NCBI GenBank assembly: GCA_021292105.1 | Contig: CM037874.1 | Coordinates: 53,054,540 to 53,118,539, forward strand | Reading direction: 5' to 3' | Length of the DNA stretch: 64,000 nucleotides | Source of the DNA: Anadara kagoshimensis | Taxonomy: Eukaryota; Mollusca; Bivalvia; Arcoida; Arcidae | Shown: one piece after another, positions 1,516-57,400 of the stretch | How positions within the stretch are numbered: position 1 is the stretch's first letter | Layout of the letters: every line of letters starts with the position of its first letter | Translations under genes and position numbers: made by a program | Notes under the pieces: model-generated | The model's input: the letters and a program-made list of their open reading frames with translations, nothing else | What the model was told of the DNA's origin: nothing | The model's database searches: none

Positions 1516-4500
1516 CTGTTTTAAAACACATAAAATTGTCAAGATTAAAATTAAACTATTTTTTTAATTTGCAATTACACAGCCATTTTTATTCACATGA
1601 ATTTTCCTGAGAAATTAACATGAATAGAGCTTATATATACGTGTGGAATTCACATGAAAAATTTCATTTAAATCTCACATGAAAGAATATATGTGTATTT
1701 CATGTTTTGATTCATGTTAATTTCACATGAAATTTGTCATGTGCATCTCCTTTCACTGTTGATACATTCTGCAAAGTTTTGCGAATTTCTGATAAATAAT
1801 CAAAATCAAACATTACAATCCATGTCCAACTCACAATCGCAAAGCAAAGTAAGAACTGTTAAACTGACAAGTTAGGTTATAACAAATATACTTCCACCAG
1901 GGATGTGAAGCAAGGTGCTCTAGAAAGGTAAGCAACGTCTGTTTAGGTAGCTACACCCGCCACCCGTGAAATCAAAATTGAAAATGTAAGGAACATGAAA
2001 CTACAAAATGTATTTGAAATTAAATATATAAACAGTTTTATCTGAGAATTAAACCAGAAAATAATTTCCTTCTGAACTCATTTTTAGATTATGATTCTGT
2101 TCTCTATATTCTTATGTCACAGACAGTGACACAATGATACCAACTGTTATTACCTTACCTTAACTTAAAAGCCACAATCTGTTTCAATTGTCCATATTTT
2201 TCTTTGCTTTTTGTTTTCTTTAAATTTCTAAATACAGAAGCCAATGCTTCATCAAATTTGAACATCTCGCTGTCGCTTAAATCATCAGCTTCTTCAACAC
2301 TATCTTCATCCTGAAATACATTTATAAATCATTTTTAGTAACCTACCACTACGGTAGCTCAGTTGGTTAAGTGCTTGCTCTGTATGTGGGAGGTTGTGGG
2401 TTTGAACCTTGGCAGGTCTGACAAGACCACTAAGGTAGCTCAATTGGTTAAGTGCTTGCTCTGTATGTGAGAGATCGTGGGTTTGAACCTCGGTCGGGTC
2501 TGACCAAGACTAGAAAATAGTTAGTGACTGTTCTTTTGCCAAGCACTCGCAATTTAGAAATGAAAGTTATTGGGTCCTTTGGTAGAGACCTTAAAAACAA
2601 TATAAATTAAATATTCTTGACTGGACGTTAAATCTCACTCAATCAATCAATTTATAGTAACCAAATAGATAAACAATTAGCAATCTCATCAAATTTTACC
2701 ATCTGGGTTTGAATCTTAGATATCTAAGTAGAGCCTTGTGTAAGAATATTTTTTTCTAAACTGACCACTTCTTTAAATTTAATTGAGTAAAACTGGTTGT
2801 TTGAATGAGGTTTAACATCCCAGGCAACAATGTTCACCAGCTATAGGTAAAGGGATAGAAATTCTGACCTTTGCAAAGATGGGTTCGTTCATGTGCAAAG
2901 CCTGCAGTGACATTGGACATCGGTTTTTAAGGTCTCTTGCGAAGAAGCTTTTAACTTTTACCGAGGTGGTCAGTTTATGAGTAGTGGAGTTTTATAATCA
3001 AATATCATATAGAGACATTACTATCTTATTAATAAGAAGATTTTGTGGTTTTATTATTTGCTAGAATCAATTTTCTGTCCAAAATTTCTGACAAACTAAA
3101 AATTAATTTGGCGTGGCCTAACTAAACAAATAAATAAAATACCTCTTCCTCTTCAGCAGCAGCATCTCCTAAAGCATTTTTCACAGATTTCCTAAACTCT
3201 TCATCTACATCCTCATCACCTTCTGAATCATCATCACTGGAACTACTTTCATCATCATCCTTGTCATCTTCATCATCAATGTCATCACTGCTTTCATCAA
3301 CATCACTCATATCTACGTCATTATTCAGACCATTGCTAAATTCTTCAGACGAAACATCATCCCCATCATCAATGTCTTCATCCATGTCATCTAAATATAT
3401 TTAAAGTCAAGGGGGGTTAATAAATATAAGTACTTTGCAAGAACCCAAAACAAGAACATGATATAAGAAACAAAAGAAAACGTAAACAATGCATATAACA
3501 GATTAAGCTGAGTGGTGTTTAAAAACCCCAGTCAAGATTCTTTCACCCAAATCCAGTTGGTCATTTCTGCAATGGTAGAGGAAACCAGAGTGCTCAGAGT
3601 AAACATTGACCTTGGGTGGAACCGACATCTTAAGGATGTAGCAACACTTGATATAGATTTATACCTCTTTGTTTCAAATTTTAATCCCATAACCCAACCA
3701 TGAAACTTTTGCTTTAAAACAATGAGGACTTACCTTCAAAACTCAACTGTCCTTCATCATCTGCATCGTCCGATTTCTCTGTCTTGAAAACCTACAAAGA
3801 TACAAAGATGTGTTTGTGAAACTATATGAGAATGACTGTTGATATTATGTATTTTAGGTGAAAGGTCAAAGATTTGTTGTGATGACACTATCTCACTTGT
3901 AAAAGGTCAAGGTCATCAGATCAGGTCAAGGATTGTAGTGATGACACTATCTCAGACAAACCAAAATACAGTGGAAAATATGAGAACAGTACAGTACTCT
4001 ATGGACATTTGATCTGCTAATTAAAAATATCAGCCGATAATATGTTATAACTGCATTTAAAAGAAATTGTTCATGATTTTGAATGTTACAGGTCTTGTGC
4101 CTCTAATACAGAAAGAAAGTACCTTATGGGTCATTTGATATGGGAATTAAATATAAAATTGTATGTTACAACTGCATTTGTAAAGATCTTGTTCATGATG
4201 TTTAATTTAGGAGGTTTTGGGCCTCTAAACTAATGGATATTTATATCTGGACAATACAGGTACTACTGGATTAAACTCACATTTGTAATGAGTCCTAGTG
4301 CCTCTGGTGTCACATGACTAGTCAGGTACCCAAACACACTCTTTGCTGTTATCCTAGCTAGACTGGATCCCTGTGACATCATACTTAATAGAAGTTCTGT
4401 AATAACTGCTATCCATTCTGGTTCTAAATAATTAATAAAGAAGGTTGTGTAAAAGATGGGCGGACAAGGCTGAGTGGTACTGTCACTGGCTTTAGATGTC

Positions 4501-6878
4501 AAGGGATGCTGGTTGGAACCTCATTCGGGACTTGGAAATTATCTGAGATGATTTTCAACTTCTGCCTTAAAAGCTTGACACTGGAATAGTGTTTCGGATG
4601 AGACTCAAAATTGAGGTCCCATGTCTCAGTGAATGCTAAAGACAGCTCTGTTGAGTTAAAAAAGAATAAGTCATATGTGGCTGCTACAGAGGACACTTAC
4701 AACTACAAGCAACTGAAACAGACTGAGCAAAGTAAGAAAAAAATATGTCAGGGATCAGAACCATATCAAATAATGTTAACCCAATGGCTTACCATCTCCA
4801 CTCTGAAAGGTTCTTTCTTAGTTTTGATTACACATGTGGTGGGTGGTTACCGTGTTACTAGCTAAAGAAACAAACATTTAAGTCAAGTAATGTCAAATCA
4901 CAATCCATAAAGCAAAATATAAACTTTGAAGTGTCAATTTTAGCTGAACATATGAATTGCCATGAAATATAGAGTATGCGAACTTCCATGAGAGAAGAGA
5001 GGTCAGGTGTGTTGGGGTGTTAAGAAATACTGACTTTAAGAAAGGTTGTTTTTTAAAAATAAAAAATAAAAAAATGTTTTTGTTAAAATATGAAGCAAAC
5101 AGATATTAAACCACTGGTATTAATGATGAGGTAGTCCTGATATAGATTTGGTCCCTAAAACAGTTTGTACTTCAACATAAAACTTCATGGGAAAGTTATA
5201 AAGCAAAATATAAAGAATCATATTTTAGGATTTAAAAATAGGGTGGCAATAAAAGCAAGTTGGCAATTATAAGATTTAGAATTAGTGTGACGATTTATGA
5301 AGGTAAAAATTTCAGAGTTAAATGTAGTGTGGCAATAAAGTAAGGTGGCAGGGTGTTATGAGATAACCCTTTAATAGACAATTGTATGAGTCTGACCTCT
5401 GACCTTGTAACCAGAGGACGCTTTTGTTCTACGCATGTCATTCATTGATTTCTGTAACATGTGCTTTTGGCAGCAGTTAGTCTGCAGCCTCCGACATAAA
5501 TGGTTGTACCTCGAGACGAGTTGTCTTATTTATTTCTTTATGAACGTGTGAGTTCATAACACAGGGTAATCAGAAGGAATTCAATAGGGTTTTATTCTAT
5601 ATGTCTTATGACCTAGGAATAAACAGGGATAAATAGAAAAATTCAATTCCATAGTCCAAATCTTACCTTCTTCTCCTTGGGACTTTTTAGATTTTCTCCC
5701 TTTTGTTGCTATTGGAAACGCTTTCAGATAACAAATTTGTATATCCTAAAAAATTAAAACGAGAAATATAAAGTTTTATAAATATTGGAAGTACATTTCA
5801 CATCATATGTGAATATAAATTATTACAGGTCTTCTTGGTTCTTACACATATGGATCTGTGCATAAGGTGGGGAGGGGGGGGGGCTTGGTGGCTGAGTGGT
5901 CTAAACCACACACGTATGGATCACAGGTCCTCTTATTGTCTAGGTTCCAATCCAACTCTGGACAGATACTAGTGTAAGATAAAGTTTGTCAGTTACTTCG
6001 CTGAAAGTGATTTTCTCTGGGTTTCCGCCACCATCCATGAAACGAATGCCTTTATATAAGTGCAAGAAACATAACATGGGTAAAAAGCTCTATTACTCCA
6101 GTCCTACCTGTCCATTAAGCCAATGAAATCATACTAAAAGAGAAAGGGTTCCTGTTCTATACTTGGATAAATTGTGATGCTATGGACAATGGACGATGCA
6201 CGACAGAGAGCAGACGGGAAGTGAACGCAATAGCTCATCTGAGCCCAAGGCTCAGGACTCAGGTGAGCTAAGAATTTGTCAAAATTATGACTTCTGTTAA
6301 TGCAAATGTGACTATGGATACATCTTATCCATAATCACTATCACTCTATTATAAGCTAAATTTATTAACAGGGACCAGTTAAAAAATCTTTCTAGTATTT
6401 CTACATCTGGCTTATCCATGTTATAACATTTTAAATTATTTCATAAATAACTTTTAAAATAACAATCATTATGTATAGCTAAACAACATTGACCTGTCTG
6501 CCTGACCTTTAATATAAATATTCATCATGGACCACTACATTTAGTTAAAAGGGGCACATGTTTTTATTTCAATTAAAAAAATGGAAAGAGTAAACACTTC
6601 CACTGTGTTTTTATTAATTGAGAGAATTTTAACTACCCATGTATTGGGTAGATCATCATATATGAATATTCCTGATAAAAGTTCAAGTCGACAGGTCAAT
6701 GTTGTTTGTCTGTATTATCAATCATTATCATCAGTATAATGTTTAAGTAAATTTCTGATTAGAGAAATTTAACTTTGAACTTTGACCTTGAACCTTGACC
6801 TTTATTAAAATCATGATAAACAAAATAATATATTATAATGGTGATATCAAAAAAATATTAGATTAATGTCACTGTGTG

Positions 6879-14189: not shown

Positions 14190-17100
14190 TTTTGAAAATC
14201 AGTTGATGAGACATATTATAATCTCCTAATGAGACACAATATAATCACCTAATGAGACACAATATAAACACCCAATGACACAAAATATAATCACTTTATG
14301 AAACACAATACAATCATTTTATGAGACAAAATACAATCACCTAATGAAACACAATACAATCACTTGATGAGACACAATACAATCACCTAATGAGACACAA
14401 GACTATCATTTTATGAGACACAATACAATCACCTAATGAGACACAATACAATCACTTTATGTGACACAATACAATTACCTAATAAGACACAATACAATCA
14501 CTTAATGAAACACAATACAATCTCCTAATGAGATACAATACAATCACCTAATAAGACACAATATAAACACCCAATGACACAAAATATAATCACTTTATGA
14601 GACACAATACAATCATTTTATGAGACAAAATACGATCACCTAATGAAACACAATACAATCACCTAATGAGACACAATACTATCACCTAATGAGACACAAG
14701 ACTATCATTTTATGAGACACAATACAATCACCTAATGAGACACAATACAATCACTTTATGAGACACAATACAATTACCTAATGAGACACAATGCAATCAC
14801 CTAATGAAACACAATACAATCGCCTAATGACACACAATATAATCACATGATGAGACACAATACAATCACCTAATGAGATACAATACAATCACCTAATAAG
14901 ACACAATACAATTACCTAATGAGACACAATACAATCACCTAATGAGACACAATACAATCACCTAATGAAACACAATACAATCACCTAATGAGAGACAATA
15001 CAATCACCTAATAAGACACAATACAATTACCTAATGAGACACAATACAATCACCTAATGAAACACAATACAATCACCTAATGTGACACAATACAATCACT
15101 ATATTATAGAGACACAATATTGTCACCTAATAAGACACAATACAATGACCCAATAAGACACAATACAATGACCCAATAAGACACAATACAATCACATAAA
15201 TAGGCACAATACAATCACCCAATTAGACACAATACAATCACATCATGAGACACAATACAATCACTTTATGAGACACAATACAATCACCTAATGAGACTCA
15301 ATACTGTCACCTAATGAGACACAATACAATCACCTCATGATAAAAATGCAATCACCTAATAAGACACAAAACAATCACCTCATGAGACACAATACAATAA
15401 CTTTATGAGACACAATACAATCAACTAATAAGACACCATAACATTAACTAAATAGACAAAATACAATCACATAAACAGACACAATAAAATCACCTAATGA
15501 GACACAATACAATCACCTCATGAGACACAATACAATCACCTAATGAGACACAATACAATCGCCTCATGAGAGACAATACAATCACTTTATGAGACACAAT
15601 ACAATCACCTCATGAGACAAAATACAATCACATAATTAAACAAAATACAATCACATAAACAGACACAATACAATCACCTAATGAGACACAATACAATCAC
15701 CTCATGAGACACAATACAATCACTTTATGAGACACAATACAATCACCTCATGAGACACCATACAATCACGTTATGAGACACAATACATTCATCTCATGAG
15801 ACAAAATACAATCACCAAATTAAACAAAATACAATCACATAAACAGACACAATACAATCACCTCATGAGACACAATACAATCAACTACTGAGACACAATA
15901 CAATCACCTCATGAGACACAATACAATCACTTTATGAGATACAATCACTTCATGAGACAAAATACAATCACCTAATGAGACACAATACAATCACCTAATG
16001 ACACACAATGCAATCACCTCATGAGACACACTACAATCACGTTATGAGACACAATACAATCACCTTATGAGACACAATACAATCACATTATGAGACACAA
16101 TACATTCGCCTCATGAGACAAAATACAATCAACTAATTAAACAAAATACAATCACATAAACAGACACAATACAATCACCTCATGAGACACAATACAATCA
16201 ACTTTTGAGACACAATACAATCACCACATGAGACACAATACAATCACTTTATGAGACACAATACAATCACTTTATGAGATACAATCACTTCATGAGACAA
16301 AATACAATCACCTAATGAGACACAATACAATCACCTAATGAGACACAATGCAATCACCTCATGAGACACACTACAATCAACTTATCAGACACAATACAAT
16401 CACCTTATGAGACACAATACAATCACGTTATGAGACACAATACATTCGACTCATGAGACAAAATACAATCACCTAATTAAACAAAATACAATCACATAAA
16501 CAGACACAATACAATCACCTCATGAGACACAATACAATCAACTTCTGAGACACAATACAATCACCACATGAGACACAATACAATCACTTTATGAGACACA
16601 ATACAATCACTTCATGAGACAAAATACAATCACCTAATGAGACACAATGCAATCACCTAATGAGACACAATACAATCACCTCATGAGACACACTACAATC
16701 AACTTATGAGACACAATACAATCACCTAATTAAACAAAATACAATCACATAAACAGACACAATACAATCACCTCATGAGACACAATACAATCACCTCATG
16801 ATACACAATACAATCAACGTATGAGACACAATACAATCACCTAATAAACACAATACAATCAACTAATGAGACACAATACAATCACCTAATGAGACAGAAT
16901 ACAATCACCTAATTAGACAAAATACAAACACATAAACAGACACAATACAATCACCTAATGAGACACAATACAATCACCTAATGAGACACAATATAATCAC
17001 CTAATGAGAGACAATATAATCACCTAATGAGACACAATACAATCACCTAATGTGACACAATACAATCACCTAATGTGACAGAATACAATCACCTCATGAG

Positions 17101-18225
17101 ACACAATACAATCACCTAATGTGACACAATACAATCACCTAATAAAACACAATATAACCACCTTATGAAACACAATACAATCACCTCGTGAGACAGATTA
17201 CAATCACCTAATTAGACAAAATACAATCACATAAAAAGACACAATACAATCACCTGAAAACAATACAATCACCTCATGAGACACAATACAATCACCTTAT
17301 GAGACACAATATAATCATCTTATGAAACACAATACAATCACCTCATGAGACAGAATACAATCATCTAATTAGACAAAATACAATCACATAAACAGACACA
17401 ATACAATCACCTGAAAACATTACAATCACCTCATGAGACACAATACAATCACCTTATGAGACACAATATAATCACCTAATGAGACACAATACAATCACCT
17501 AATTAGACACAATACAATCACATAAATAGACACAATACAATCACCTTATGAGACACAATACAATCACCTCATGAGACACAATACAATTACATAATTAGGC
17601 ACAATACAATCAAATATTTAGACACAATACAATCACCTCATGAGACACAATACATCACATAATAAGACAAAATACAATCACCTACTGAAACACAATACAA
17701 TCACCTCATGAGACATAATACAATCACCTCATGAGACACAATACAATCACCTCATGAGACACAATACAATCACTTTATGAGACACAATACAATCACCTCA
17801 TAAGACACAATACAATCACTTTATGAGACACAATACAATCTACTAATGAGACAAAATACAATCACATAAATAGACAAAATACAATCACCCAATGAGACAC
17901 AATACAATCACCCAATGAGACAAAATACAATCACCTAATGAGACACAATACAATGACCTAATGAGACACAATACAATGACCTAATGAGACTCAATACAAT
18001 GACCTAATTTAACACAATACAATCACCTTAAGGACACAATACAATCGCCTTAAGGACACAATACAATAACCTAAAGGACACAATACACTCACCTTAAGGA
18101 CACAATGGCCCAATTCTCCACAAGGAGAGATGGACATAAGTCAAGTCAAGTAAGGACACAATACAATCACCTAAAGGACACAATGCAATCATCTAATGTG
18201 ACACATTATAATCACCTAATGACAC
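14190..18225. repeat. 23-bp satellite array, about 170 units
   Basis: Consensus unit CACCTAATGAGACACAATAC plus AAT (23 bp), with variants in the CTAATG part (CTCATG, TTTATG, ATAAAC). A higher-order order is visible: the CACATAAACAG variant recurs at about 15654, 15836, 16151, 16494 and 16747, with the same neighbours in between. Lies in the long copy B intron. Confidence 0.97.
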
Positions 18226-18239
18226 AAATAGAATTTGAA

Positions 18240-21160: not shown

Positions 21161-21181
21161 GTAAGTTGAATATCAGTTACC

Positions 21182-22471
21182 ATGGCAACTGGAACCACAA
21201 GGGCACAAGAGTTGTTAGGTGACACCAAATGCGACTTATGTGACACATACAAAAATGTCTCATGGAAATGCCAGAATTGTAATGACATTCTGTGTCAACA
21301 GTGTAAAAAATCACATCTAAGGAGTAGAGTTTCCCAAAACCATATTGTAACTGAACTGGAGGATTCTATGGATGATGGTGAAGGTTCCAGTATATTTTGT
21401 CCTGATCATGAGGATGAAGCATTTCAGATGTTTTGTATCGAGTGTGATATTCTGGTATGCTTTGACTGTATAAGCGGGAAGCATAAAGGACATGATTGTA
21501 AGAAGATAAAAGAAGTAGTGAAACCAAAACAAACACAACTTGAAGATACATTTGAACAGATAAAGACCAAGCAGATACCAAAGTTAGAACAGTCTCTTGT
21601 GTCCATAACCAACATGCAGGAGAAATATAACCAAGATATAGACCGAGTGATTGCCGAGATAAAAACCAAGGGAGATGAATTAAAACAAGAAATAACGAGC
21701 ATACAAGACAGGTTAATAGATAAACTGATGCAACAGGTGAAAGAAGATACAAAATGTTTGAATGAAACAAAAGAACAATTAGATTTGAGACTGAGTGCCT
21801 TGAAGGAGCAACTAAAACAACATGAAGAGAAGATGAAAAAGTACACCGATATTGGCATAATTACCAAAGCTGCCAGCATCAAAGATTCTTTGTCACAGCT
21901 AACCAGTAGTATAGAGATACCAACAGTCAAATCTCCAAACTTTCAAATTGGTCAAGTCAATGGCAGCGATCTGGAGAACATGTATGGACAACTGGAACTA
22001 GAGAAGCCACCAGGTAAAATGCAGACAGAAAGGCCAAAACCTAACAGAAGCCAGACGAATCTTCCAGATGAAATAGTTAAACAAGACCAATCCAAATCCA
22101 AGGATACCAGAGTTATCAGAGGTAATATTGTCTCATCATTTACATGGAGAGAGGATCTAAATAAGATTGCAGTGACAAAACAGAAACAGAATGAAGCCTG
22201 GATGTTGTCAGATGATTTTATAACTGAGGAACAATATCTAAATCTGGTCAATGATCAAGGTAAACATATAACATCAATCAAACATAACTTACAAATACTG
22301 GACATGGCTACAACAGTATCTGGGGATTTATTGGTAACAGCATACAGTCAGATCAAGCGTGTGTCTAGATCAGGTGGTACAGATGTCTTTGCTGATTTAT
22401 CACCGTATCCGATATGGGGTATACATGTTACACAGATGGTGATGTACTTGTTGGTTTGTATGACTTCTTAG
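21182..22471 (+). CDS. RING-less B-box/coiled-coil TRIM-type protein, NHL-like tail broken
   Basis: Intronless ORF of 429 residues, start ATGG in good context. Residues 17-54 form a B-box 1 type zinc site (C17, C20, C30, C33, C38, C41, H45, H54). Residues 73-104 form a B-box 2 (C73, H76, C85, C88, C93, C96, H101, H104). Residues about 110-225 are a long charged coiled coil, then a linker, and from about 320 beta-type sequence like the NHL/six-bladed propeller of TRIM2/3/56/71-like molluscan proteins. No RING lies in front, so ubiquitin-ligase activity is unlikely by itself. The reading frame shifts near 22430, and propeller-like sequence goes on in other frames to about 22918. The gene lies on the strand opposite to copy B, inside its long intron. 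Bivalves have large families of such genes, many linked to immunity; the role here is unknown. Confidence 0.8.
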   Translation: MATGTTRAQELLGDTKCDLCDTYKNVSWKCQNCNDILCQQCKKSHLRSRVSQNHIVTELEDSMDDGEGSSIFCPDHEDEAFQMFCIECDILVCFDCISGKHKGHDCKKIKEVVKPKQTQLEDTFEQIKTKQIPKLEQSLVSITNMQEKYNQDIDRVIAEIKTKGDELKQEITSIQDRLIDKLMQQVKEDTKCLNETKEQLDLRLSALKEQLKQHEEKMKKYTDIGIITKAASIKDSLSQLTSSIEIPTVKSPNFQIGQVNGSDLENMYGQLELEKPPGKMQTERPKPNRSQTNLPDEIVKQDQSKSKDTRVIRGNIVSSFTWREDLNKIAVTKQKQNEAWMLSDDFITEEQYLNLVNDQGKHITSIKHNLQILDMATTVSGDLLVTAYSQIKRVSRSGGTDVFADLSPYPIWGIHVTQMVMYLLVCMTS

Positions 22472-22918
22472 AAAGAAGAGTACTAGACTGTCACAACAAG
22501 GAAAGACAATACAAGTGATAGACCTTACAGACAATGACTTAAGTATGTACGATTCATGTACCAGTATTACAGAGAATGTTAACCATGACATTGTGATGAT
22601 ATGTAACCGTACATCCTAGTTGTAAACAAAGATGGCTGGAGGAGGTTTATATACAGAGGACCACCATCAGGGAAAAAGACAATTCGCAACTTCTGCCCAT
22701 CAGACGTCATTTGTGACCAGAGTGGACGGATCCTTGTTGCTGATACAAATAACAGTACCATACACCTTCTAGATGAAGATGGTACATTTCTGCAATTTAT
22801 ACTGACAAAACAACATGTAATAGAAAATCCAACAGCACTAGCAATAGACCATAGTGGTAGAATCTGGGTTGGTTGTAGGATGGCAAAGTGTTTATAGCAG
22901 AATAATTTTGTGACATCA
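22472..22918 (+). pseudogene. Decayed NHL-like propeller tail of the TRIM-type gene
   Basis: Past the ORF stop, propeller-like coding continues in shifted frames: GDVLVGLYDFLERRVLDC, then GKTIQVIDLTDNDLSMYDSC, then an in-frame TAG after ICNRTS. A last segment reads SDVICDQSGRILVADTNNS, DEDGTFLQFI and AIDHSGRIWVG before TAG at about 22918. At least three frame changes or stops separate these from the B-box ORF. Either the gene has lost its C-terminal domain, or the assembly has indel errors here. Confidence 0.7.
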
Positions 22919-28935: not shown

Positions 28936-28984
28936 TGAGTTACCACTATTTTCTGCGATGGATGAGATTACTTCAAGTAAGTAT

Positions 28985-30190
28985 TGAGACTACTTCCTGT
29001 AGGTAATGAGACTACTTCCTGTAGGTATTGAGACTACTTCCTGTAGGTAATGAGACTACATCCTGTAGGTAATGAGACTACTTCCTGTAGGTAATGAGAC
29101 TACATCCTGTAGGTAATGAGACTACTTCCTGTAGGTAATGAGACTACATCCTGTAGGTATTGAGACTACACCCTGTAGGTAATGAGACTACATCCTGTAG
29201 GTAATGAGACTGCATCATGTAGGTCATGAGACTACATCCTGTATGTAATGACACTACACCCTGTAGGTAATGAGACTACATTCGGTAGGTATTGTCACTA
29301 CATCCTGTAGGTCATGAGACTACATCCTTTAGGTAATGAGACTACACCCTGTAGGCACTGAGACTACATCCTGTAGGTCATGAGACTACATCCTGTAGGT
29401 CAAGGGACTACAGGATGTAGGTAATGAGACTACATCCTGTATGTAATGAGACTACTTCCTGTAGGTATTGAGACTACATCCTGTAGGTATTGAGACTACA
29501 TCCTGTAGGTCATAAGACTACATCCTGTATATCATGAGACTACTTCCTGTAGGTCATGAGACTACATCCTGTAGGTATTGAGACTAGACTGCTTTCTGTA
29601 GGTCATGAGACTACATCCTGTACGTATTGAGACTTCTTCCTGTAGGTCAAGAGACTACATCCTGTAGGTAATGAGACTACACCCTGTAGGCACTGAGACC
29701 ATCCTGTAGGTCATGAGACTACATCCTGTAGGTAATGAGACTACATCCTGTAGGCACTGAGACTACATCCTGTAGGTCATGAGACTACATCCTGTAGGTC
29801 ATGGGACTACTTCCTGTAGGTAATGAGACTACATCCTGTATGTAATGAGACTACTTCCTGTAGGTATTGAGACTACATCCTGTAGGTATTGAGACTACTT
29901 TCTGTAGGTATTGAGACTACATCCTGTAGATCATGAGACTACTTTCTGTAGGTAATGAGACTACATCCTGTAGGTATTGAGACTACTTTCTGTAGGTCAT
30001 GAGACTACATCCTGTAGGTATTGAGACTTCTTCCTGTAGGTCAAGAGACTACTTTCTCTAGGTCATGAGACTACTTCCTGTAGGTATTGAGACTACTCTG
30101 TGTAGGTCATGAGACTATTTTCTGTAAGGATTGGGACTACTTTCTGTAGCTTATGAGACTACTTCCTGTTGGTGTTGAGACTATTTCCTG
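28985..30190. repeat. 22-bp minisatellite, about 54 units
   Basis: Unit TGAGACTACATCCTGTAGGT plus AA, with TTCC/ATCC and AATG/ATTG/CATG variants mixed. Ends about 50 nt from the donor of exon 30244-30297. Confidence 0.97.
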
Positions 30191-48400: not shown

Positions 48401-51400
48401 TATAACAAAAAAGCAAAGCTAATGACCTTTTCTGTGACATCCTTTTTATCTGCTAAAGATGCTCTCTGTGACCGAGTTCTAACTGGCGAGGGACCAACGT
48501 TACCGATCTCTAAATTCAACAACAGTCTTATCTGCAATAAAAGACAAAATGAAATATCAAACAATATCATCAGTGGAAATAAAGAATATTCCATTATGAT
48601 TCTGGAACTGATAACAGCAATAATTTCATTACAGTACCACCCCCACCCACCTCCAAAAAACTAAAGTAAATTCAAAATTAACCTGCACTGTAACTTTTAA
48701 ATTGATTGTTTTTTTTAATGAAATTTATCATTTTTTATCATTTTGTATCTCTTGCATTGAAAAATATCCATTCAAAAAAAGTTACGGAAGAGTGGTCATG
48801 TTCCTTGATCTTCTTTTTCAGAGTGCAAGGTCACATGATTATTGTTGTTATATGTGGTTGTGGTGTGCCAGGGTGTCTATAGTGGAATATACATGTATTA
48901 GAAGAAATTATTTACTTTGTAGCTAGCTAAACAGAAGGTGCTTACCCTTCCAGAGCACCCAGCCTCACTTTTCTAGTGAAAGTTCACTACTGTAATCTGC
49001 CAATTTCAAAGTTTTTACTTTGCTTTGGGATTGTGATTTGGTAAAGGATTAGTATGTTTGTTTTTGATTACTGTTTTAGGAAATTTATATTCCAATTTAC
49101 TGGAACATTTTAGATAAAATTTTGGTTAAAACTTACAACTAAGAGACAACCATCTGATACTGTGACTACAACTTGTTTACTAGGTGCTAAAATATACAAA
49201 AAACATCAAATCATCAATTAATATTTACAATCACTGATTTTTTCTTACATAAATGTTACATTTCAGTAACCTTGCATGACCTGTCAACCTCTCGTCGAGT
49301 CTGATTTTGGTTTGGGTTGTTTATAAGTTTATGTGTTTAAGCTTGACAGACATTAATTTCCTAATTTGACTGTAAATATTCATCCTAACCTTTGACCTTA
49401 GATAATAAGTTTCTGATGTGACTGTTAATAACTTTATATTCATCATGACCTTTGACCTTACAGATAATAAGTTTCTGATGTGACTGTTAATAACTTTATA
49501 TTCATCATGACCTTTTACCTTACAGACAATAAGTTTCTGATGTGACTGTTAATATTCATCATGACCTTTGACCTTACAGATAATAAGTTTCTAATGTGAC
49601 TGTTAATAACTTTATATTCATCATGACCTTTGACCTTACAGATAATAAGTTTCTGATGTGACTGTTAATATTCATCATGACCTTTGACCTTACAGATAAT
49701 AAGTTTCTAATGTGACTGTTAATAACTTTATATTCATCATGACCTTTGACCTTACAGATAATAAGTTTCTGATGTGACTGTTAATAACTTTATATTCATC
49801 ATGACCTTTGACCTTACAGACAATAAGTTTCTGATGTGACTGTTAATAACTTTATATTCATCATGACCTTTTACCTTACAGACAATAAGTTTCTGATGTG
49901 ACTGTTAATATTCATCATGACCTTTGACCTTACAGATAATAAGTTTCTGATGTGACTGTTAATATTCATCATGACCTTTGACCTTACAGACAATAAGTTT
50001 CTGATGTGACTGTTAATAACTTAATATTCATCATGACCTTTGACCTTACAGAAAATAAGTTTCTGATGTGACTGTTAATAACTTTATATTTATCATGACT
50101 CTTGGCCTTACAGATAATAAGTTTCTGATGTGACTGTTAATATTCATCATGACCTTTGACCTTACAGACAATAAGTTTCTGATGTGACTGTTAATAACTT
50201 TATATTCATCATGACCTTTAACAAGTATTCATTCTAACCTTTGACCTTATAGATAACAAGTTTCTGATGTGACTGTAAATATCTAGTGACCTTTGACCTT
50301 ACAGATGTCACTTAATATTGATTATGACCTTTGACCTTACAGATATCAAGTTCCTGATGTCACTGTTAATATTCACAGTGACCTGAGACCTTACCTTCTT
50401 CAGACATCTGTAATATACTTTTAACTGTATCCAGACATTTATCTTTACCTACAGCAGATTTTGCATGAACCTAAAAAAAGATGTAGCCCAATTTTATTAT
50501 TATCATTTTTAAAATATGGAATTACATAATTTGATATTTTTGGAAATCATTACATTACTCTGGTGATTTGTGATGTAAACATTTTCCATATTGTGATGTA
50601 AACCTTTTCTATTTTATACTACACAAGTGTTATGGAGTATTGATCCTGTAGTATGGTAGCAAACTCCATTACCTACAAACAAATGGTATTTTGAGTTCCT
50701 AGATACTGACAAATACTGGTAAACGGTAAACAAGAAAAATGTATTACACACATGTTAGAACAGGCAGTTTTAAGAACAACTGAAGTTATTTCAAAAATAT
50801 CAACATCTCAAATGAACAATAGCATTACAAAAGTCTTAATATTTTACGAATCTAATGGCCAAATCTACAAACCTTCCCAGAATCATCAAAATTTTGAGTT
50901 AACGTCCTGCTACAAATGAAATACACAACTCACATAATGATCACATGACCTTACCTCAGCTCTTTTGTAAAGGAGGTGAAATAGGTTAGTGGCTCTGTTA
51001 CCCAATTCCCGTTCTTCCTTTTGCTTGGCTCCATGCACCATCAATTCCAATAATGGCATTACAAGATCCTATAAATAATAAAAACAGATATGGTTTAAAA
51101 ACATATTTTATCAAAAGAATTTAATAATTATTTTTGAATTTTATCTTCAAAGTTAACTGGTCTCTCTGGCAGACTGGTCTAAAGTGCTTGCTTTCATATC
51201 TCAATATGTTTAACAATTTGGTTTGATAAATCAAGTGCCATGAATTTTGTCAGTCAAGTTTTAAGTGTCATGAATTTCGTCAGTCAAGTTTCAAGTGTCA
51301 TGAATTTCGTCAGTCAAGTTTCAAGAGTCATGAATTTTGTCAGTCAAGTTTTAAGTGTCATGAATTTTGTTGGTCAAGTTATAAGTGTCATGAATTTTGT

Positions 51401-54400
51401 CAGTTAAGTTTCAAGTGTCATGCATTTGTCAGTTAATTTTCAAGTGTCATGCATTTGTCAGTCAAGTTTCAAAAATGAGTAAGCTTCTCTTGGCACCCTT
51501 GGATAAACCATCAATATTGTACAGTGAAAATAACTTGACTTTAGCATAAAAAAACCGACTCAATCAGACCAACCAATTAATTTTCCAAATTCAATTCAAC
51601 AAAATATGCCAGTGATCATTTTATCTAGGAATGTATAAGAGAGAAAGGCCATGTCAAAAGTTTGACAGATCAAAATCATGACTAAAAATATAAACCAAAT
51701 ACCCTACCCATCCTGATATTAGACCTATTCTTTTGGTCAGTAACTATAACATCTTCCACATATCTAAGTACATTTCATGGAAAGCAACTAGACTCACCCT
51801 AGCCTGAACATATTAATATCAGTCGGACTCATACATAAACCACATATATTACCATCTACCAATATATAAGAGCGTTTCTTTTGGTCAGTAACTATGACAT
51901 TTTCAATATATCTAAGTGCATTTCATGGAAAGTAACTAGACTGTCCCTAGCCTGAACATCTTAATACAAGGATAAAGATTAGCAGGGGCCCAGTAGCATA
52001 TGGCTACTCAAAATCAGTCTGAGACCCTTAATGTTTACAAATTTTAGCTATTTATCACTATTACAACTTCTTTTCTGAAGTCATTTGTGCCCCTAACTCA
52101 AATAGTTTAGCTTAATGCCTGTTAATATCAGTCAAATATGGATGTTTGTCATAAAAAAAACATACCAGTCCTTGTCCAAATTACAATCCCAAAGCAAAGT
52201 AAAAACTTTGGAATAGGCAAACTATGTAAAGACATGAACTTCCACTAGGAAAATTAGGCCAGATGTTCTGGTAAAGGTAAGATCAGAAGCTGTTTGTCAT
52301 TAAATATACCTACCAAAGCTAGATCTGGTGTTGCTTGTCCTTTAACCAATGTCTCTACTAAGTCTAAAACCCTGTTTAAAACATAAAAATTGTCAAGATT
52401 AAAATTTTAAAATTAAACAAACTTTTTTTTTATTTGCAATTACGCAGCCAAATTTTATTCACATGAATTTACACGAGAAATTAAAATGAATAGAGCTTAT
52501 ATATACATGTGGAGTTCACATGAAAAATTTCATTTAAATCTCACATGAAAGAAAATATGTGAATTTTGTGTATAATTTTGATTCATGTTTATTTCACATA
52601 AAATTTTTCATGTGCATCTCCTTTCACTGTTGATACATTCTGCAAAGTTTTGCGAATTTCTGATAAATAATCAAAATCAAACATTACAATCCATGTCCAA
52701 ATCACAATCGCAAAGCAAAGTAAGAAGTGTTAAACTGACAAGTTAGGTTATAACACATGAGCTTCCACCAGGGATGTGAGGTTGAGTGCTCTGGAAAGGA
52801 AACAACGTCTGTTTTGCTAGCTAGCTACACCCGCATCTTGTGAAATCAAAATTGAAAATGAAAGAAACATGGAACTATTTGACATAAAATATATCAACAT
52901 TTTTAAAGGATTACTTCAGAAAATAATTTCTTAATGAACTTTTCCATTTATTAAATTACGGTTATTTTCTTAATATTCTTAGTCACAGACACCAGGGGTT
53001 CATAATTATGTTTTGTAATGAAAGAACCAGGACCATTTGCCTTTATTTTTGGAAGGTCACACAAAGATTTTTAAAAGTCTATTATCTGAACGACCCATGT
53101 GAATTATCTTATAGAAAAAGCAGTGCTATCCTGGTAAACAAAGATAGATCCTATGGACTTTTACTTTTAAATTTCAAGGGTCCCAATGTAAAATAAACAG
53201 GTCATAGACAGACATTGGATCTGGAAAATTTTGAAGCCCTGACACATATTACAAACCGTTATTACCTTACCTTAACTTAAAAGCCACAATCTGTTTCAAT
53301 TGTCCATATTTTTCTTTGCTTTTTGTTTTCTTTAAATTTCTAAATACAGAAGCCAATGCTTCATCAAATTTGAACATCTCGCTGTCGCTTAAATCATCAG
53401 CTTCTTCTGCACTATCTTCATCCTGATATACATTTATAAATCATTTTTAGTAACCTACCACTACGGTAGCTCAGTTGGTTAAGTGCTCACTCTGTATGTG
53501 GGAGGTTGTGGGTTTGAACCTCAGCCAGGTCTGACCAAGACCACTAAGGTAGCTCAGTTGGTAAAGTGCTCACTCTCTATGTGGGAGGTTGTGGGTTTGA
53601 ACCTCAGCCAGGTCTGACCAAGACCACTAAGGTAGCTCAGTTGGTTAAGTGCTCACTCTCTATGTGGGAGGTTGTGGGTTTGAACCTCAGCCAGGTCTGA
53701 CCAAGACCACTAAGGTAGCTTAGTTGGTAAAGTGCTCACTCTCTATGTGGGAGGTTGTGGGTTTGAACCTCAGCCAGTCTGACCAAGACCACTAAGGTAG
53801 CTCAGTTGGTTAAGTGCTCACTCTCTATGTGGGAGGTTGTGGGTTTGAACCTCAGCCAGGTCTGACCAAGACCATTAAGGTAGCTCAGTTGGTAAAGTGC
53901 TCACTCTCTATGTGGGAGGTTGTGGGTTTGAACCTCAGCCAGGTCTGACCAAGACCACTAAGGTAGCTCAGTTGGTAAAGTGCTCACTCTCTATGTGGGA
54001 GGTTGTGGGTTTGAACCTTAGCCAGGTCTGACCAAGATCACTAAGGTAGCTTAGTTGGTAAAGTGTTCACTCTGTATGTGGGAGGTCGTGGGTTTGAACC
54101 TTGGCAGGGTCTGACCAAGACTAGAAAATAGCTAGTGACTGTTCTTTTGCCAAGCACTCAGAATTTAGAAATGAAAGTTATTGGGTCCTTTGGAAGAGAC
54201 CTTAAAAACAATATAAATAAAATATTCTTGACTGGGACATTAAATCTCACTCAATCAATCAATTTATAGTAACTAAATAGATAAACAATTGGCAATCTCA
54301 TCAAATTTTACCATCTGGGTTTGAATCTTAGATATCTAAGTAGAGCCTTGTGTAAGAATATTTTTTTCTAAACTGACCACTTCTTTAAATTTAATTGAGT

Positions 54401-57400
54401 AAAACTGGTTGTTTGAATGAGGTTTAACATCCCAGTCAACAATGTTCACCAGCTATAGGTAAAGGGAGAGAAATTCTAACCTTCGCAAAGATGGGTTCGT
54501 TCATGTGCAAAGCCTGCAGTGACATTGGACATCGGTTTTTAAGGTCTCTTGCGAAGAAGCTTTTAACTTTTACCGAGGTGGTCAGTTTATGAGTGGTGGA
54601 GTTTTATAATCAAATATCATATAGAGACATTACTATCTTATTAATAAGGAGATTTTGTGGTCTTGTTATTTGCTAGAATCAATTTTCTGTCCAAAATATC
54701 TGACCAACTAAAAATTAATTTGGCATGGCCTAACTACCAAATAAATAAAATACCTCTTCCTCTTCAGCAGCAGCATCTCCTAAAGCGTTTTTCACAGATT
54801 TCCGAAACTCTTCATCTATATCATTATCACCTTCTGAATCATCATCACTGGAACTACTTTCATCATCATCCTTGTCATCTTCATCATCAATGTCATCACT
54901 GCTTTCATCAACATCACTCATATCTACATCATTATTCAGACCATTGCTAAATTCTTCAGACGAAACATTATCCCCATCATCAATGTCTTCATCCATGTCA
55001 TCTAAATATATTTAAAATCAAGGGGAGTTAATAAAAATAAGTACTTTGCAATAACCCAAAACAAGAACATGATATAAGAAACAAAAGAAAACGTAAACAA
55101 TGCATATAACGGATAAAGCTGAGTCGTGTTTAAAAACCCAAGTCAAGATTCTTTCACCCAAATCCAGTTGGTCATTTCTGGGAAGGTAGAGGAAACCAGA
55201 GCGCTCAGAGAAAACCATTGACCTTGAGTGGAACCAATATCTTAAGGATGTAGCAACAATTTATATAGATTTACACCCCTTTGTTTCAGATTTTAATCCC
55301 ATAACCCAACCATAAAACTCTTGCTGTAAAAGAATGAGGATTTACCTTCAAAACTCAACTGTCCTTCATCATCTGCCTCGTTTGATTTCTCTGTCTTAAA
55401 AACCTACAAAGATACAAGAAGTGTTTGTGAAACTATACATGAATGCCTGTTGATATTATGTATTTTAGGTGAAAGGTCAAGGTCATGAAAGATTTGTAGT
55501 GTTGACACTATCTCACGTAAAAGGTCATGGTCATCAGATAAGGTTAAGGGTTTGTAGTGATGACACTCAGACAAACCGAAATACAGTGCAAAAAATGAAA
55601 GACTTTCTTTAATTAAGAGACCAGTGAAAGTACTCTATGCACATTTGATCCGCTAATTAAAAATATCAGCCGATAATATGTTATAACTGCATTTTAAAAG
55701 AAATTGTTCATGATTTTGAATGTTACAGGTCTTGTGCCTCTAACACAGACAGAAAGTACCGTACCTTATGGGTTATTTGATCTTGGAATTAAAAGTATCA
55801 GCAGATCTATAAAATTGCATGTTACAACCAACTGCATTTGTAAAGATATTGTTCATGATGTTTAATTTAGGAGGTTTTGGGCCTCTAGACTAATGGAAAT
55901 TAATATCTGTACAATACTGTCATTTAAACAGGAACTGTTGTATATAACTCACATTTGTAATGAGTCCTAGTGCCTCTGGTGTCACATGACTAGTCAGGTA
56001 CCCAAACACACTCTTTGCTGTTATCCTAGCTAGACTGGATCCCTGTGACATCATACTTAAAAGAAGTTCTGTAATAACTGCTATCCATTCCGGTTCTAAA
56101 TAATTAATAAAGAAAATTGTGTAAAATATGGGCGGACATGTCCGATTGGTACTGTCACTGGCTTTAGAAGTCAAGGGATGCTGGTTGGAACCTCACTCGG
56201 ACTTGGAAATTATCTGAGGTGATTTTCATCTCCTGCCCCAAAAGCTTGACACTAGAATTGTGTTTCCGATGAGCCTCAAAATTGAGGTCCCATATCTCAG
56301 TGAATGCTAAAGACACCTCTGTTGAGTTAAAAAAGAATAGGTCACATGTGGCTGCTACAGAGGACACTTACAACTACAAGCAACTGAAACAGACTGAGCA
56401 AAGTAAGAAAAAAATATGTCAGGGATGGAACCTTATCAAATAATGTTAACCCAATGGCTTACTATCTCCATGGTGATAGATTCTTTCTTAATTTTGATTA
56501 CACATGTGGTGGGTGGTTACCATGTTACTAGCTAAACACACAAACATTTAAGTCCAAGTAAGGTCAAATCACCAAAAAGCAAAGTTAAAACTTTGATAAG
56601 TGTCAATTTTAGTTGAACATATGAGTTGCTATGAAATATAGAGTATGTGAACTTCCATGAGAGAAGAGAGGCCAGGTGTGTTGGGGTGCTAAGAAATAAT
56701 GACCTTTTAGAAAGGTGGTTTTCAAACAAAAATATTTTTGTTAAAATATGAAGCAGATATTAAAACACTGGTATTAATGATGAGGCAGTCTTGATATAGA
56801 TTTGGTTGTACTAAAACATGAAAATTTCATGTTTCTGGATTAAGTTGGCTCCATAGTTGCCAGGGGAATAATAAAACATATTAAAGTAGTAGTAGTAAGA
56901 GTAATGGGGTTTAACATCCCAGTCAAGAATATTTCACTTATATCGAGACGTCGCCAGCTATAGGCGAAAGTGCAGACATTTTGCCTGTGTCTTGCCCTGA
57001 TGGCATTATACAGCAAGGTTTTTTAGCATGCCAACCCCACCGTGACACGGGACCTCGTTTATTTTAAGTTCTCATCCGAAAGAACTGACTTTCATTTCAT
57101 AATGCCGAGTGCTTGGCGAAAGAACAGTCACTACGCACTTTCAAGTCTTGGGTCAAACTCGGCCGGAGTTCGAACCCACGACCTCCCACTTACGTAGCGA
57201 GCACTCTACCAACTGAGCGACCGCAGTGGTCATATGTTAAAGTACAGTAAAACCTTAATCATTGCCAGAATTTGTAAAATTTAAGCTTTATAAAGGAGTA
57301 AGTTGATAAATCATGGGAGAGCTATAAAGCAAAATATAGAAGAATCATATGTTAGGATTTAAAAATAGGGTGGCAATAAAGCAAGTCTGCAATTATAAGT

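Follow-up and report, generated by a model that had tools for sequence, protein, structure and literature searches.

We suggest that a minisatellite in an intron of the window, the whole 64,000-nt stretch of DNA analysed here, began as a tandem duplication of the start of that intron, and that its unit starts at intron position +1 or within a base or two of it. Its units contain GTAAGG, which is the intronic side of the 5' splice site, and lack the exonic side. Combining the sequence of this intron with that of its paralogues, we propose that (i) the array most likely arose when roughly the first 54 intron bases were duplicated in tandem in the ancestor of a cluster of nine blocks, (ii) units were then gained and lost through slippage or unequal exchange, independently from block to block, and (iii) splicing is probably unaffected. 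Judged from sequence, this account as a whole is a probable one. The window corresponds to C18:53054540-53118539 in a genome of 1.115 Gb in 36 contigs, and positions are window positions unless C18 is named. The features concerned are:

55920..56192, minus strand: open reading frame matching DNA_pol_phi (PF04931) positions 573-622 (profile match, E 2.5e-12)
53271..53422, minus strand: upstream exon matching DNA_pol_phi (PF04931) positions 703-756, with donor AAG/GTAAGGTAAT (profile match)
50395..50470, minus strand: exon A (predicted, 76 nt), from its open frame and the comparison of nine blocks
50389..50394, minus strand: putative true 5' splice site AAG/GTAAGG, placed by frame, AG/GT flanks and conservation in nine blocks
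50341..50394, minus strand: unit 1 of the array (54 nt), from intron +1, 45/54 identical to the internal-unit consensus
49346..50394, minus strand: tandem array, mainly of 54- and 62-nt units, low end approximate
49187..50394, minus strand: intron of 1,208 nt with 3' end TATATTTTAG, from sequence and block comparison
49137..49186, minus strand: exon B (predicted, 50 nt), followed by GTAAGT, its frame running on from exon A as APSKQVVVTVSDGCLLV

Exon A is open in one frame, with stops in the other two (by eye), and its 3' end reads AAGAAG, after which the intron starts with GTAAGGTC at 50394 on the minus strand. The putative 5' splice site at this border is predicted to form a U1 duplex of -10.0 kcal/mol. 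Joined at +1, exons A and B would encode a peptide of 42 residues that is identical in nine blocks save for one A/T difference, the single variable residue of exon A, and one L/F difference, and the frame of both exons is preserved in 9/9 blocks.

The coincidence of intron start and repeat start had been pointed out in an earlier note on this DNA, and it holds up well. GTAAGGTC stands at intron +1 and next at 50340, a spacing of exactly 54 nt, and the first 54 intron bases align without gaps to the internal-unit consensus at 45 positions; 5,000 dinucleotide shuffles of the same bases reached at most 30 identities to the consensus, and the best other 54-mer in the window (both strands, with the minus-strand array excluded) reached 31. 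The window intron contains 20 repeat cores including the first, counted at up to four mismatches, and 16 copies of GTAAGG, that is, 15 behind the true donor where the note had spoken of at least 14 donor-like sites. Two details of that description need adjustment: the array is where it was placed, at 49370..50394, except that at the low end one tandem-repeat row reaches 49346, and the 54-nt period is exact for the first spacing but not uniform thereafter, most units measuring 54 or 62 nt and others 38 nt, 52 nt or, in one composite, 23+62 nt. Head-to-tail units of tens of bases in variable copy number correspond to what is generally called a minisatellite.

The same start recurs in a family of paralogous introns. 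The 76-nt exon A has nine matches in the genome, all of them on one strand of C18 between 52.95 and 53.41 Mb, in blocks spaced 46 to 83 kb apart that we number c1 to c9 by rising coordinate, the window intron being c4. The 54-nt register at the intron start is common to all nine introns, with GTAAGG in seven and GTAAAG in c3 and c6, so that the comparison with other copies of the intron proposed in the earlier note finds the register in 9/9 homologous introns with 3 to 27 cores each. At up to four mismatches, c1 to c9 hold 27, 3, 21, 20, 16, 16, 18, 21 and 4 cores, respectively. The type of array differs as well: c1, c4, c5 and c8 consist of 54/62-nt units and c3, c6 and c7 mainly of 40-nt units, and c2 and c9 have few units (3 and 4 cores) in introns of 1,860 nt, much of it other sequence, and 349 nt, respectively. 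Unit 1, the second unit (~33 to 40 nt) and the terminal unit recur across blocks, and three or four units are therefore probably older than the duplications that produced the blocks.

Contact with an exon sets the intron array apart from its neighbors. In a comparison of nine tandem arrays chosen in or near the c4 block with five putative exons, the latter being a partial list, only the intron array touches an exon; the next nearest array begins ~35 nt from exon 53271-53422, on its acceptor side, and the remaining arrays are at least 761 nt away. The window also contains two long arrays at 14206-18234 (23-nt units, 176 copies) and 28962-30190 (22-nt units, 56 copies), the consensuses of which both start with ATGAGAC. 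Tandem arrays of an 83-nt unit, starting ~33 nt from an acceptor site, are found at 53457-54121 (eight units) and, in the other block, at 2345-2510 (two units). This unit looks to us tRNA-derived in view of the box-like GTAGCTCAGTTGG and GGTTTGAACC; ARAGORN reported 0 tRNA genes in the window, and we did not adopt a tRNA reading of the array at 53457-54121.

The unit at the edge of the array and the units in its interior differ in what they conserve. In the nine copies of unit 1, mean column conservation is 0.963 for the donor hexamer and 0.900 for the next ten bases, and the corresponding values for 125 internal units are 0.907 and 0.955. Because internal units were located by the core pattern, their core conservation is inflated, and we rely only on the lower retention of GTAAG, which opens 87 of the 125 internal units and is missing from the start of 38, some of these reflecting the way in which composite units were divided. 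Of 141 units, seven that were short had been left out before alignment. Among themselves, unit-1 copies have a mean distance of 0.121 (36 pairs), which is smaller than the mean of 0.197 (125 pairs) between them and internal units from the same intron. These distances are used in preference to the unit tree, in which unit 1 does not form an exclusive clade, the smallest clade with all nine copies comprising 48 of 134 tips. The pattern fits a fixed edge unit and an interior that turns over.

Block c5 provides a case in which this turnover may have left a trace. At the sites separating c1/c4/c8 from c3/c6/c7, c5 sides with c3/c6/c7 in exon A and unit 1 (7/8 informative sites) and with c1/c4/c8 downstream of the intron (27/27). 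From the third unit onward, its array also resembles those of c1/c4/c8. Given this switch between unit 1 and the downstream sequence, one exchange seems to have been resolved inside the c5 array. The 700 nt upstream of exon A in c5 are mixed, with 1/3 sites shared with c3/c6/c7. This is a single clear switch and the blocks are mosaic elsewhere too, which is too little to claim a recombination hot spot in the array. In another pair of blocks, c9 and c4, identity is 99.9% at a distance of 1 to 2 kb upstream of exon A and 90.6% in the nearest 1 kb (L027, L028), which suggests a recent conversion.

The exon does not contribute detectably to the unit. Smith-Waterman alignments of the exon tail, taken at lengths of 24, 30, 40 and 76 nt, with four versions of the unit gave p values of 0.11 to 0.71, none of the 16 being significant. 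Given that the exon end has no significant similarity to the unit in these alignments, duplication appears to have begun from the first bases of the intron. An 8-nt match, GATGTCTG, connects the exon end with the terminal unit (p 0.11 to 0.22) and gives past copying of exon sequence a small probability. Duplication of the exon tail was rejected as a candidate, and neither this match nor the weak resemblance TTACAG..AAGAA was used.

The consequences for splicing can be gauged from the pairing of the sites with U1, which was computed with the U1 5' end from two U1 loci of the genome for sites of a fixed hexamer set and not for every GT. For the true donors the pairing energy is -10.0 kcal/mol (seven blocks) or -6.8 kcal/mol (c3 and c6). 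Among the copies listed the strongest reaches -5.1 kcal/mol, a typical GTAAGG copy -4.8 kcal/mol and GTTAGATC -0.4 kcal/mol, and in c3 and c6, which have the GTAAAG donor, the margin over the copy at +55 is only ~2 kcal/mol. The copies pair weakly because the exonic half is missing: the nine introns together have 102 GTAAG sites beyond +1, none of them preceded by G and nearly all preceded by TCT, TAT or TGT. What the earlier note called donor-like sites are thus half sites, which possess the intronic GTAAGG but not the exonic G at -1. Moreover, reading through from exon A leads in 9/9 blocks to a stop in frame, the last base of which is at intron +23 to +35, and splicing from a copy at +55 or beyond would therefore include an in-frame stop. 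Taking together the better U1 pairing of the first site, the lack of an exonic G at the copies and the in-frame stop, splicing is probably unaffected by the array. Our analysis consequently favors the last of the options raised in the note, that the array is tolerated because the first site wins, and we regard a passive expansion tolerated for this reason as the most likely interpretation. The U1 snRNA has 42 matches in the genome, which comprise a tandem cluster at C6:24556553-24590906 with many copies ~860 nt apart and dispersed single copies.

A row of half donors could conceivably act as a U1 snRNP platform behind the true donor, either strengthening the recognition of exon A or shielding against premature polyadenylation. 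One intron (c1) offers up to 24 copies of GTAAGG at -4.8 to -5.1 kcal/mol, and U1 is reported to bind behind a 5' splice site in PAH intron 11 (PMC5933811) and in work on exon-specific U1 (PMC4822034). However, the number of GTAAG sites behind +1 ranges from 2 to 25 between blocks, 14 units in c3, c6 and c7 carry GTTAGATC with its pairing of -0.4 kcal/mol, and almost a third of the internal units (38/125) lack GTAAG at their start, and we consider such a platform very unlikely. A slimmer chance still is given to a more specific version, in which weak contacts would reinforce the definition of exon A, exchange between blocks would shift the copy number and the platform would be needed most at GTAAAG donors. 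Passive expansion behind a winning first site is thus the reading that we retain for the effect of the array on splicing.

Other alternatives start from the 13-nt core of the unit, AGGTCAAAGGTCA, and depend on how far unit and core extend beyond these introns. A 116-nt query of two units gave 73 matches genome-wide at E up to 10, and 73/73 are inside the nine introns; in this search all ten first-look candidates were scored, very common words were skipped and the counts are lower bounds. The exact 15-mer CTGTAAGGTCAAAGG occurs 62 times in the genome, 60 of these in the cluster, and its reversed control 93 times. AGGTCAAAGGTCA occurs 6,986 times compared to 75 times for the reversed string and is thus ~90-fold commoner. 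Based on the confinement of the two-unit matches and the frequency of AGGTCAAAGGTCA, the unit appears to be private to this intron family and the core to be a common genomic word. Twenty stretches sampled around AGGTCAAAGGTCA on C1 (L065-L084) fall into at least three recurring unrelated sequence families plus single cases, and none of the 20 has any likeness to the unit outside the core (by eye). The presence of AGGTCAAAGGTCA in at least three unrelated repeat families looks as if different repeats had converged on one 13-mer. A dispersed transposable element or other dispersed repeat as the source of the unit found no support in the genome-wide search (73/73 matches in the nine introns, as a lower-bound count); for the 13-nt core such an origin may apply.

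The abundance of the core bears on the order of events, as the intron may have acquired or already held a sequence with the AGGTCAAAGGTCA core, one unit of which then supplied its GTAAGG as the donor. Alternatively, the intron may itself have arisen from the repeat. The excess of AGGTCAAAGGTCA over its reversed control, its occurrence in several unrelated sequences among the 20 sampled stretches and the loss of detectable unit homology past the exon border are all in line with a repeat that came first, but all matches of the two-unit query, as a lower-bound count, are within the nine introns, and the sampled stretches, by eye, share only the core with the unit. We therefore view a repeat that preceded the donor as unlikely, and prefer duplication of the intron start. 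The sequence supports homology between the repeat and the true start of the intron. That the array began by duplicating the donor, as the earlier note states, is likely but goes beyond this homology, the core being abundant elsewhere and the direction calling for an outgroup. Both observations that the note had named as speaking against its idea, an intron start unrelated to the repeat and a unit widespread away from donors, have turned out the other way, with 45/54 identities and with two-unit matches confined to the nine introns. The core could also have a role of its own. We take AGGTCAAAGGTCA to be a DR1 nuclear-receptor site, and the array might then be an intronic enhancer built of such putative sites, as 64 perfect cores over the nine introns and the internal core columns, the best conserved of the unit (0.955, a figure biased by the core-based finding of units), would allow. 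Perfect cores, however, vary from 2 to 14 per intron, 6/9 copies of unit 1 are without one, and the 13-mer is common genomic background, all of which makes an enhancer very unlikely in our view. Duplication of the intron start followed by passive turnover is the interpretation with which we compare other systems below.

Based on their strand and order in the blocks, exons A and B are assigned to a MYBBP1A-like gene. Neither exon has a Pfam match, and three PDB sequences with E 1.3 to 9 (designed helical repeats etc.) were not taken as relatives that would provide a domain name. DNA_pol_phi (PF04931), which we take to represent the MYBBP1A/Pol5 family, has 18 matches genome-wide, 18/18 without a stop: positions 573/574-622 are matched nine times, positions 703/704-756 eight times, with none for c8 and that for c6 just below the curated cut-off. 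A single exon, at C18 53452858-53453055 upstream of c9, matches the N-terminal part (57-124), and it is single-copy by DNA search too. The MYBBP1A/Pol5-like locus at C18:52950600-53453600 has one 5' end and nine 3' blocks of ~50 kb, and the window copies are at 55920-56192 and 4263-4520. The locus may be one gene with nine alternative 3' ends or may include eight partial copies that have been kept open. Exon 53271-53422 ends in a phase other than that in which exon A starts (by eye), implying that at least one exon lies between them or that the genes differ; behind its donor AAG/GTAAGGTAAT, the tandem-repeat listing has no array directly adjacent. Between the two block copies in the window, the reading frame 56192-55923 has 4 synonymous and 5 other changes, and codon comparisons of open stretches are mixed; only open frames are claimed, and not coding selection.

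The blocks extend beyond the exons. Twenty 301-nt samples were taken between c4 and c5, and 17 of them have a match in the window, the other 3 having none. Among the matching samples two (L095, L102) are out of place and several are partial, and the remainder are arranged as in the c3-c4 interval. On the plus strand at 21170-22897, opposite to the MYBBP1A-like exons, a B-box/TRIM-like open reading frame is followed by one with an NHL repeat, and this region is matched at 95% by one sample from the next block.

The earlier note knew of no described class of minisatellite defined by splice-site register. Such a class is in print as the amphioxus 'mirages' of Adh3 and the globins BflGb6 and BflGb9, which are described, in the available part of the paper, as minisatellite-like tandem duplications at an exon-intron boundary, with many units carrying splice signals, unstable length and edge units outside homogenization, and for which RT-PCR suggests undisturbed regular splicing (PMC3087553). 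Mirages are also stated, in the part available, for lancelet troponin C and PGBD5 (PMC3902484). The array described here resembles mirages as far as these are described there: a 54-nt minisatellite unit lies at the exon-intron boundary in 9/9 introns, many units have splice signals, the edge unit seems to be fixed, and the copy number differs among the nine blocks (3 to 27 cores per intron), an instability of the kind seen in mirages. In contrast to mirages, which according to the same sources duplicate the boundary and include exonic sequence in their units, copying of the donor is detected here for its intronic half alone (p 0.11 to 0.71 for the exon tail, 0/102 copies after G). A further difference is that this case allows a comparison of nine paralogous introns that start alike. 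As exon sequence is not detectably copied, we call the array a variant of the published mirage class.

Two other systems share some of these properties. In human segmental duplications, internal tandem repeats are reported, in the available text, to change gene structure by affecting exons or creating new introns (PMC2812944). Minisatellite expansion within recently duplicated paralogues is common to those cases and ours, whereas here both coding exons are in the same frame in nine blocks. CeRep25B of C. elegans is likewise an intronic minisatellite discussed in connection with splicing; it is found in several genes, with clusters on two chromosomes, and the accessible part of the report makes no mention of a splice-site register (PMC4039745). 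In the open-licence literature, to the extent that its text was available, no splice-register minisatellite was found outside lancelets. The intron array thus extends a class otherwise found in print for lancelets by a splice-register minisatellite of another genome, one of 1.1 Gb. With a common donor and arrays of differing length and type, the nine introns constitute natural replicates for a direct test of the effect of half donors on splicing. If splicing is unchanged, as we expect, they would provide a measure of how much donor-like sequence an intron tolerates without the exonic half.
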